Part shown: positions 21,301 through 33,495 of the stretch, piece by piece
Position numbering within the stretch: the stretch's first letter is position 1
Layout of the letters: every line of letters starts with the position of its first letter
Assembly (NCBI RefSeq): GCF_017094505.1
Contig: NZ_CP064787.1
Span: 1,054,001 to 1,118,000, forward strand
DNA from: Halapricum desulfuricans
GTDB lineage: Archaea > Halobacteriota > Halobacteria > Halobacteriales > Haloarculaceae
DNA: 64,000 nucleotides
Reading direction: 5' to 3'
The notes under the pieces: generated by a model
Told to the model about the DNA's origin: nothing
Database searches by the model: none
The model's input: only the letters and a program-made list of their open reading frames with translations
Position numbers and translations under genes: made by a program

Positions 21301-21310
21301 CCGAAGCGGT

Positions 21311-21549
21311 CACCCGCGCGAACGGACGTGAGCGCGAGTCCGACGAGCGACTAACGCGAGCGAAGCGAGCGGCAGGAGCGAGGACGGCTTTTGGTCGAGC
21401 TTTTGCAAGTGAGCAGCGCGGGACGCGCCGCGTCCCGCGGGCCGTACGGGCGACTCGCGGGTCGCCCGTACAACGAAGCGAACGCTGCAAAAGGTCGTAA
21501 TGTACGCCCGCAACACTACCGGGCGAGCAACTACTAGTAGGCACGGCGG
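21311..21549 (+). repeat. 239-bp direct repeat, copy A
   Basis: Matches 27537-27775 without gaps at about 231 of 239 positions. It contains GCGAGCGAAGCGAGCG-type dyads, a GCGGGACGCGCCGCGTCCCGC hairpin (21419-21439), CGGGCGACTCGCGGGTCGCCCG, a CGCCCG-9 nt-CGGGCG hairpin and the palindrome CTACTAGTAG. Its last 70 bp recur at 24095-24166. No protein is supported. It begins 10 nt after dpsA. Confidence 0.85.
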
Positions 21550-21611
21550 AAGTGACATTGTGTGGCAGTATCCTTCTCTCAGATGCCGTCGAGCAGGCTG
21601 TCGTGAGCCTT

Positions 21612-24058: not shown

Positions 24059-24094
24059 TTATTGAGTGTTTGACTGGACGTACGAAAGCACACA

Positions 24095-24166
24095 GCGAGC
24101 GCTGCAAAAGGGCGTAGTGTACGCCCGGAACACTACCGGGCGAGAAACTACGAGTAGGCTCGGTGG
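24095..24166 (+). repeat. Partial copy (about 72 bp) of the tail of the 239-bp repeat
   Basis: Corresponds to the last 70 bp of copies A and B: CGCTGCAAAAG, the CGCCCG/CGGGCG hairpin with its 9-nt loop, then CTACGAGTAGGCTCGGTGG. Several substitutions indicate it is older than the A/B pair. Confidence 0.7.
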
Positions 24167-24384
24167 GACTGAAAACGACATATGTCGAGGGTACTTCGTC
24201 GGAAATAGCTAGAATATAATACGAACGGCGTGTTGAATACAGACTCTGTCGCTTGCGTGTTTATACGGTGCATTAATAGTTCAGATTTCGGTCGAATGCT
24301 GTTGAGAATCAGTAAGCCCTGAATAATTACCTCTCGTGCCGGAAAGAGTGGGATAGTCAACAGGATACCCTCGAAGAAATTCCC
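24167..24384. other. AT-richer non-coding stretch
   Basis: 218 bases with lower GC than the surroundings and many TATA-like tracts (GAATATAATACG near 24212, GTTTATACGG near 24260). It probably holds the promoter of the three-gene set that starts at 24385. No coding frame is convincing. Confidence 0.4.
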
Positions 24385-27287: not shown

Positions 27288-27536
27288 GGCTTGTTCGTGG
27301 ACTTGGGGTCTGGCGACGAAACCAGGTAAGTAGCTACTAGGTAGACTCGGTGCAAGTGAAACAGTCGAAAGAGAGCAGCCGGCGACCGGGCGTTCACAAG
27401 AGCGAAGCTCTTGTGCAGCCCATCAGAACGGCGCCGCCGTTCTGAGGACGGTCCGCAGGATCCGGAAGGTCACCGGGAGACTTTCCTTCGGTCGTCTCCC
27501 GAGCCTTTGCTCGCTACACTCGGAAAGACGCCGGTT
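27288..27536. other. Non-coding scar region before repeat copy B
   Basis: No gene. A tract at 27330-27350 (CTACTAGGTAGACTCGGTG) recalls the end of the 239-bp repeat. 27476-27536 holds a GAGAC/GTCTC hairpin followed by CGAGCCTTTGCTCG, closely matching 33342-33402. Confidence 0.45.
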
Positions 27537-27775
27537 CACTCGCGCGAACGGACGTGAGCGCGAGGCCGACGAGCGACTAACGCGAGCGAAGCGAGCGGCA
27601 GGAGCGAGGACGGCTTTTGGTCGAGCTTTTGCAAGTGAGCAGCGCGGGACGCGCCGCGTCCCGCGGGCCGTACGGGCGACTCGCGGGTCGCCCGTACAAC
27701 GAAGCGAACGCTGCAAAAGGTCGTAATGTACGCCCGCAACACTACCGGCCGAGTTTCTACTAGTAGGCTCGGTGG
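27537..27775 (+). repeat. 239-bp direct repeat, copy B
   Basis: Gap-free match to copy A at 21311-21549, offset 6,226 bp. The eight or so differences cluster in the last 30 bp (GGCCGAGTTTCTAC versus GGGCGAGCAACTAC). It lies in a gene-free stretch downstream of the metal ATPase. Confidence 0.85.
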
Positions 27776-27985
27776 AACTGGAATGAAGCGCTCAAGGGTC
27801 TGAAACTGCATAATCTGTCAGGAGAACCATTGAGTGTGGCCGTTAGCGGTACGGTCCTTCGAAAGCCTGCATGATCGGTCGTGGATTTCGGGATCCTATC
27901 GAGAGAACTTCAGAAGGAGCGTGCTGCATACAGAGCATAAGTGTACGATTAGCTGTCTAAACAAATACCCGGGACCGGTTCGCAC
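27776..27985. other. Non-coding stretch downstream of repeat copy B
   Basis: 210 bases without a convincing frame or repeat; it separates copy B from the 3' end of the disrupted oxidoreductase gene. Confidence 0.35.
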
Positions 27986-28889
27986 TTACCGTACTGGAGG
28001 TTTGCCATCTGTTAACTCAATATCAATTATGACCGTCCCCTCCACACCAGCTTCCAGTTCGTCAAGAGTCGGCTTTCTGTCACCGTGAATCTGTATACCC
28101 AGTCGTCGGGCCGCATCGGTTCCATGACGATCAATGAACTCCTTGATGTACTGAGCAACGGCTTTGGAATCTGGATGCGGCGTTGTGGTACCTTCTCTGT
28201 GCTGGCCCTGAACCCGCATGAACACCGGTTGGCCACCTCTCAGATTCCGCCACCACGGACTCTGGGTAGTGACGATGAGGTGTCCGTCCTTCACCCAGTA
28301 GCCGACTGGTATGGTGTATTCCTGGCCGGTTTTCGACCCGGTAAACGTCAACAACATAATCGAGTCACTCACAAGTGAGTGCAGCGGCGACCGCAACAGA
28401 CGCGACATCACCGGGTTGATGACCTTGTAGGCGATGTCGGGAACCGGCGGTCCGCGAGTTTCGACGTACCCACTCTCAGCATCGTTCCCCGTCAGCGACT
28501 CATTCGGCTGGGAGTCGCCCCGAAAGTCATCTGCGTGGTCTTCGACGAACGCTCGCATTCCCCGAGGGCGTCGGCCAAGGAGTTTCCGGCTGTCGTCGGT
28601 CACCCGAGCAGCTAATCCGAGGCGTGCAGTGGTGTAGATGCCACACATGAGTGCGATGAATCCGAGTGGCTTCCCCCGACGGCGCATCCGTCGTCCGAAC
28701 GCCAACAGGGACGGATTTGGATATCTGATAGACCGATTTAGAACGTCGCTGAAGACGGCGGCGACTTCTTCATAGTCCAGTGATTCGGGTCCCGTGAGAT
28801 CGTAGGCTCGATTCTCGTGTCCGGACTCGGTCAACACGATTGCTGCTGCTTCGCTGATGTCCCGCGCGTCCACGAAACTGGTCTTCCCA
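27986..28889 (-). pseudogene. C-terminal part of a split NmrA-like/deazaflavin-dependent oxidoreductase gene
   Basis: Residues 1-125 continue the NAD(P)-binding NmrA-like protein encoded at 29177-29667: the join GKTS-FVDARDISEAAAIVL is recovered when the insertion is removed, followed by YDLTGPESLDYEEVAAVFSD. After a linker, residues about 150-295 are a split-barrel domain of the deazaflavin (F420)-dependent nitroreductase/quinone reductase family: VSDSIMLLTFTGSKTGQEYT, IPVGYWVKDGHLIVTTQSP, WWRNLRGGQPVFMRVQG. The intact gene would have fused an NAD(P)-binding domain to an F420-binding domain. A GTG at 28873 could restart translation of this part. Confidence 0.8.
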
Positions 28890-29176
28890 CATTCGTCTTT
28901 AGTTAAGACTCACACCCCGGTTGCGTAGCGGTAGCGAGCATCTCCTGTAAGATTGGTCGTTGCTAGTGGATCTTCTGTGCATCTTCGATCAGTCGCTCTA
29001 GCAACGGTGGTGGCGAGTAACCGAGATATTCAGAGGGAAACAGTGTAGCGAGCCGACGCATAACTCTCGATGAGGAGGTGCCGTTGTACACACTCGTCGC
29101 CTCCTCATTCCTCTCGAAGAGTAGCCTCGATAAACGGCCGCTGCCACGTGATTCTTCGCTTAGCTAAAGACGGATG
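28890..29176 (-). mobile_element. 287-bp internally deleted ISH8-type (IS4 family) mini-element
   Basis: Ends are 18-bp inverted repeats with two mismatches (CATTCGTCTTTAGTTAAG at 28890-28907; its partner, complementary strand, at 29159-29176). A 12-bp direct duplication CTGGTCTTCCCA flanks it (28878-28889 and 29177-29188). On the minus strand 29061-28963 encodes MRRLATLFPSEYLGYSP and a short tail. The first 13 residues match my recollection of the ISH8-group transposase N-terminus, so most of the transposase is deleted and the element must move in trans. It interrupts an oxidoreductase gene. Confidence 0.8.
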
Positions 29177-29667
29177 CTGGTCTTCCCATTCCCAGCTGGC
29201 ACGAAAATCTCGTCGTGTTCGACAATATCTCGGCGATGGACTTCAAGGAGGTTCTGCATGAAAAACGACGCCCGCAGCAAGGTGTACTCCATATCTGTCG
29301 CCGTGATCCGGTTCTCGATCCAGTGGTGGGGGATGAGGACGTTCTTCTCTGCCCCGAGCGTCGAAAGGTAGGCGATACGGCCGATACCCACACGGTCCGC
29401 AGCCTCGACAAACGAGCCAATCTTCGATTTGTCCACGACCGGCGGTCGAACGAGGAAGATTCCATCGACATCTGTCAGCGTACGGCCCCACGTTTCTGGC
29501 TTCGTGAAGTCGAACTCAATCACCTCTCGTGCGTCCGTAATCTCGTTCGAAACAGTTTCGGGGTCACGAACTCCGATCTTGATGGTGACGTCGCGGTCTG
29601 AAAGGGCGGCGACAACATGCTGGCCGACGGTTCCAGTTGCTCCGGTAACGAGTATCGACTCCGTCAC
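29177..29667 (-). pseudogene. N-terminal part of the split NmrA-like oxidoreductase gene
   Basis: Encodes a Rossmann domain with ILVTGATGTVGQHVVAAL at residues 5-22, IKIGVRDPETVSNEI, a DVDGIFLVRPPVVDKS strand-loop and LRASFFMQNLLEVHR, all typical of NmrA-like NAD(P)-binding proteins. Reading enters the mini-element after GNGKTS and stops at 29164. The start overlaps the preceding membrane-protein gene by 4 nt, so it was the last gene of a three-gene operon. The second half lies at 27986-28889. Confidence 0.85.
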
Positions 29668-33267: not shown

Positions 33268-33495
33268 ATGCCCACGTTCCCTGGATACACCGTAGAATTG
33301 CCGCCGGACGGGCGTGGATACCTCCGTAGAATCCACTGGGAGACGTGCCTTAGGCGTCTCCGAGCCGTTGCTCGCTACGCTCGCAAAGACGTCGATTCAC
33401 TCGCGCGAATCGAGGACTTGGTAGCGTGGCAGGGGCGTGTTACCAGCGAATTCGTCGGTACTGTCATCGATGAGATAGAGACGTATCTCCGTTAA
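33268..33495 (+). CDS. Short hypothetical protein, 75 aa, possibly chimeric
   Basis: Starts ATG 4 nt after the permease gene and reads MPTFPGYTVELPPDGRGYLR, then a helix-rich, Arg-rich segment, then ARIEDLVAWQGRVTSEFVGT and TVIDEIETYLR. The two ends look like one small conserved protein. The middle (33342-33402) is translated from a hairpin repeat that also occurs in non-coding DNA at 27476-27536, so an insertion into an older gene is possible. No known motif or function. Confidence 0.45.
   Translation: MPTFPGYTVELPPDGRGYLRRIHWETCLRRLRAVARYARKDVDSLARIEDLVAWQGRVTSEFVGTVIDEIETYLR

Follow-up and report, generated by a model that had tools for sequence, protein, structure and literature searches.

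In the genome of the haloarchaeon Halapricum desulfuricans, an oxidoreductase gene is interrupted at positions 28890-29176 of the window (the whole analysed stretch of DNA, 64,000 nucleotides long) by an element of 287 bp. This raises the questions of what the element descends from, and whether it entered the gene as a short unit or as a full-length insertion sequence that lost its middle afterwards. The locus comprises the following features:

28878-28889, no strand: target-site duplication, copy 1, CTGGTCTTCCCA (exact direct repeat)
28890-29176, minus strand: 287-bp element, very probably an ISH8-subgroup internal-deletion derivative, with its transposase remnant on the minus strand (blastn, two halves against full 1403-bp copies)
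28890-28907, plus strand: terminal inverted repeat on the transposase 3' side (end pairing and end-sequence searches)
28963-29091, minus strand: fused transposase remnant, N-terminal part (...MRRLATLFPSEY) in frame with the C-terminal part (LGYSPPPLLERLIEDAQKIH), with a nonsense codon at the end
29022-29032, no strand: deletion junction at the parent's 11-bp imperfect repeat, 9/11 alike with a 5-bp exact run in L020 (the two matches overlap over element positions 133-143; breakpoint scan)
29159-29176, minus strand: terminal inverted repeat on the transposase 5' side (end pairing and end-sequence searches)
29177-29188, no strand: target-site duplication, copy 2 (exact direct repeat)
29164-29667, minus strand: interrupted NmrA/NAD(P)-binding oxidoreductase gene, 5' part, whose frame enters the element and then stops (Pfam NAD_binding_10 and NmrA; TIGR03649 positions 2-167)
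27986-28877, minus strand: interrupted gene, 3' part, plus an extra C-terminal F420/deazaflavin-dependent reductase-like domain (below cut-off: TIGR03649 positions 173-283, TIGR00026; above cut-off: PF04075)

The anatomy given in the original prediction is confirmed: the element is 287 bp long, its 18-bp inverted ends pair at 16 of 18 positions, and the direct repeat that flanks it is exact over 12/12 positions. The termini, CATTCGTCTTTAGTTAAG and CATCCGTCTTTAGCTAAG, are inverted and start with 5'-CAT, a feature listed for the ISH8 subgroup in Table 1 of PMC2266710, as far as that source was available, and the mismatches between them are of the same kind as those between the two ends of full ISH8 copies. 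The end sequence is matched twice in the window, against an expectation of zero from shuffles, and the only good matches to both ends in the 2.94-Mb genome are the element's own two; one extra genomic site resembles the end sequence with 3 mismatches, a level at which the search controls gave similar counts (3 forward, 1 reverse).

A blastn search with the 287 bp, in which two candidates were scored per genome, found matches in 134 of the 392 genomes of the order, the own genome counted. These matches form two blocks, covering element positions 1-143 and 133-287, which are carried collinearly at opposite ends of full 1403-bp copies; among the matches listed, none outside the own genome spans the full element. 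The left block (143 bp) is at best 92% identical to L020, and the right block (last 155 bp) 90% to L021, while over the whole element L020 is the best single parent (89.5%) of the 24 distinct full copies, each exactly 1403 bp long, that could be compared. As the left and right halves are closest to different parents, the true parent is either unsampled or mosaic. The right half is also about 83-85% identical to plasmid copies annotated ISH8E, ISH8B and ISHma1.

The parents encode a DDE transposase of 434-437 aa that scores well above the cut-offs of PF01609 and the NCBIfam IS4 family model NF033592, and a YREK motif of the form Y(2)R(3)E(6)K can be read by eye in their LYRCRWEVETLFRELK. The corresponding region is deleted from the element, which, at 287 bp, falls far below the 1400-1800 bp of the ISH8 subgroup, into which the 1403-bp parents fit, and is therefore a derivative rather than an intact member. 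With ISH8E and ISH8B of Halobacterium salinarum and with ISHma1 it shares the CAT... ends, the sequences of the transposase start and end, and a flanking duplication close to one helix turn in length, but 1116 bp are missing from it, and with them all of the catalytic core, and its duplication is 12 bp instead of the usual 10 bp. The ISH8 origin that had been proposed for the element is borne out by its ends and both its halves; the contrary case, in which the ends would match no IS4-family element, was looked at, and they match ISH8. We consider it very probable that the element is an internally deleted ISH8-subgroup element that was brought in by transposition; the points against this are the 12-bp length of the duplication and the differing best parents of its halves.

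The missing 1116 bp (1403 - 287) equal exactly 372 codons, so that the beginning and the end of the transposase share one frame, and the fused stub reads VYNGTSSSRVMRRLATLFPSEYLGYSPPPLLERLIEDAQKIH followed by a stop. Thus, the leftover transposase start noted earlier is indeed present, but that picture was incomplete, because the C-terminal end is also kept and is fused to the start. In the parent, the two breakpoint sites resemble each other (CGAG..ACTCA in L020); in a breakpoint scan, positions 138 to 143 tie with L020, and 143 is the single best position with L049, L052 and the consensus. Seven of the 287 element positions (2.4%) are seen in none of the 24 full copies; two of these positions (51 and 76) lie, by our reading of the sequences, in the C-terminal stub, one of them being the nonsense codon. 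By analogy with the known behavior of the IS4 family, a full-length ISH8-subgroup element would have transposed into the NmrA-type oxidoreductase gene on the minus strand, with duplication of 12 bp of the target. The transposase gene would then have lost 1116 bp between a pair of short, imperfect repeats, and with them the entire catalytic core, so that both ends remained together with a stub that is in frame but now nonsense-terminated. The shortened element would be immobile alone, and could move only with an ISH8 transposase acting in trans. A comparable case is found on plasmid NZ_CP084885.1 of Natrinema zhouii, in an insertion sequence copy that likewise has ISH8-like ends and lacks the middle of its transposase, although its deletion is a different, smaller one (the match spans 749 bp) with another junction; this internally deleted ISH8-like element (L210, 801-1549) is annotated as a 195-aa hypothetical protein.

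The effect on the host gene is equally well defined. When the flanks are joined with one copy of the duplication, they form a single frame of 460 codons without a stop, and the junction expected in the restored frame, GKTS-FVDARD, proves correct, with homologues showing GxTSFVDARD. The two parts match complementary stretches of the NmrA-type model TIGR03649, with scores below the model cut-off that mark the gene as no more than a relative, and the gene is broken after about residue 160. Relatives of the interrupted gene occur in 33 of 146 genomes, the own included, and in the alignment around the site it is uninterrupted in 29/29 homologous loci from other genomes, in a set with one genome per species. 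Near the site, L201 has a one-residue gap, whereas the L202 homologue is in two pieces, split at residues 133-136, away from the insertion site. The homologues are 43-70% identical and probably include paralogues; a paralogue with 50% identity is also present in the own genome. Disruption of an NmrA-type oxidoreductase gene is thus confirmed, and the alternative that all relatives carry the same interruption, which was looked at, is contradicted by the uninterrupted loci.

Read across the site, the gene at 27986-29667 is a fusion of an NmrA-type domain and a C-terminal deazaflavin/F420-dependent reductase-like domain. The homologue alignments all stop by residue 321, and the C-terminal domain was found in 0/29 homologous loci; on its own, it has a match in 1 of 95 other genomes of the family (E 1e-8). 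Two same-strand genes precede the interrupted gene, with overlapping stop and start codons. A DUF6069 match is present in the flanks of 7/29 homologous loci, and the NAD(P)-binding neighbor is matched at 7/29, two of these matches being partial, and one of those two being on the opposite side.

The duplication is 12 bp long, whereas that of ISH8 is given as 10 bp in Table 1 of PMC2266710, as far as available. To place this value, elements were paired by their ends in the collected loci and de-duplicated. In three size classes, 28 other elements have exact duplications, of 10 bp in 22, 11 bp in 5 and 13 bp in one. The full-size class (n = 38) comprises 15 with exactly 10 bp, one with 10 bp and one mismatch, three with 11 bp, 18 with none and one at an edge; the 223-bp class (n = 13) six with 10 bp, one with 11 bp, one with 13 bp, four with none and one at an edge; and the 522-bp class (n = 3) one each with 10 bp, 11 bp and none. 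Eight rows of other lengths (three with none, four of 10 bp, one of 11 bp), which include double pairings of one element, were excluded. The 23 of 54 copies without a duplication may be recombined or false pairings. The 12-bp duplication is therefore slightly atypical but within the observed range of 10-13 bp.

How long ago the insertion took place can be stated only broadly. The probability that a 12-bp duplication remains perfect is 0.89 at 0.5% divergence, 0.62 at 2%, about 0.56 at 2.4%, 0.48 at 3% and 0.29 at 5%. Dating by the perfect duplication was accordingly rejected as uninformative, as it would be intact in 0.89 of cases at 0.5% divergence and still in 0.48 at 3%. In a selection-free simulation, the downstream half of the gene, which has an uninterrupted frame of 295 codons and a possible GTG start of its own, stays open with a probability of 0.24 at 2% and 0.03 at 5% divergence when the indel rate is set to 5% of that of substitutions, and of 0.53 and 0.25, respectively, without indels. 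The seven private sites (2.4%) set a rough upper bound on how far the element has changed after parting from the sampled parents, for sites on which those parents agree. The insertion is probably not old, at less than a few per cent divergence, with no sharper date; the description of the insertion as recent is in keeping with this, if weakly, since a perfect duplication gives no sharp date and would survive with a probability of about 0.56 even at 2.4% divergence.

Whether the element was short on arrival bears on its mobility. By DNA search and by search with its ends, the own genome has one copy. Since the order-wide DNA search scored only two candidates per genome, siblings were sought by the junction: with up to 3 mismatches, its pattern occurs in 1/392 genomes of the order, the own, and in 0/391 others. 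An exact search found it in no viral contig, blastn gave no match to the element in phages, and none of the best 40 of 77 plasmid records in a blastn search carries the junction. The suggested check for full-length ISH8 copies with the same ends in this genome returned, besides the element, only a broken piece of an ISH8 transposase, some 118 residues long and containing a TAG in frame, and a search of the genome for an intact ISH8 transposase found none.

A full ISH8 that lost its middle after insertion would show the same ends and the same duplication as a short form that inserted as such. Insertion as a non-autonomous mini-element, the original prediction, is thus one of two readings: with a single copy and no sibling carrying the junction, deletion in place explains the data at least as well. 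On balance, we favor, with modest confidence, deletion in place after a full ISH8 had inserted over transposition of an already shortened copy; we infer this order of events. The rival, which differs on this order only, has the element shortened elsewhere and brought in as a 287-bp MITE-like unit by an ISH8 transposase acting in trans and since lost. It has a substantial chance of being right, though below even: both ends and the duplication are intact, the broken ISH8 fragment tells of an ISH8 once present in the genome, and ISH2, a MITE with ISH8-related ends, is stated in the available part of PMC10264941 to be moved in trans by ISH8, but there is no second genomic copy, and the junction is in none of the 391 other genomes. 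A stronger form, that of a MITE at birth, in which the element is a founder copy that arose from ISH8 through one in-frame internal deletion and later transposed in short form, is improbable. If true, it would illustrate a route from ISH8 to haloarchaeal MITEs, though the known ones match ISH8 only at their ends.

The element does have several properties of MITEs, being short, with inverted ends and a target duplication and without a transposase, but amplification is lacking. ISH2 and other ISH8-dependent haloarchaeal MITEs are likewise short, without transposase, and have ISH8-like ends and a duplicated target, according to the available parts of PMC10264941 and PMC3119063, but they are multi-copy with interiors unrelated to ISH8, whereas the element here is single-copy and ISH8 throughout. 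Given that MITEs are described in the accessible part of PMC3119063 as related to their transposons in the end bases alone, the element is, under that definition, a degenerate ISH8 and not a MITE. The same part of that paper describes MITEs for which every transposase copy is broken, and a partial ISH8A of 311 bp is mentioned in the available part of PMC10264941; the portion at hand of a review of prokaryotic MITEs, PMC10969869, has nothing further on ISH8. General literature searches, not directed at the locus, found nothing on the 287-bp element.

It is very unlikely that the remnant has been retained because it is useful, for instance by giving the downstream reductase domain a promoter or a short peptide: the downstream half is open over 295 codons with a possible GTG start, but an open frame is expected without selection at low divergence, the private nonsense codon breaks the stub, and the junction pattern is in none of the 391 other genomes of the order. 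Membership in an established ISH8-related mini-element family (~522 bp, ISH2-like, or ~223 bp) is scarcely credible and was rejected, as the terminal 17-23 bp are in common, but in six such copies tested the similarity stops beyond the ends, while the whole element is ISH8, and the length differs. We thus regard the element as an ordinary, well-preserved internal-deletion derivative of ISH8. The case provides one clear example of such a derivative, along with a haloarchaeon that has lost an oxidoreductase gene. Were the short form mobile, the case would exemplify MITE formation from ISH8; otherwise it is ordinary decay of an insertion sequence.

Other repeats were seen along the way. A mini-element of 222-224 bp with ISH8-like ends (usually one ...AAG and the other ...AAT) is widespread in several haloarchaeal genera, with many copies flanked by 10-bp duplications (loci L065, L078-L080, L083, L091, L096, L111, L116, L124, L129, L149 and L153). 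Within the window, a 245-bp repeat outside an ATPase gene is present at 21310-21554 and 27536-27780, in two copies that are 96% identical and lie 6.2 kb from each other; between them is a partial third copy (81-nt parts at 24094-24174, 86%), and a 76-bp partial copy lies near 33334-33409; none of such quality lies elsewhere in the genome. Inside this repeat, 27670-27697 forms a loopless, near-perfect palindrome of 28 nt, the 14-nt arms of which are 93% complementary.
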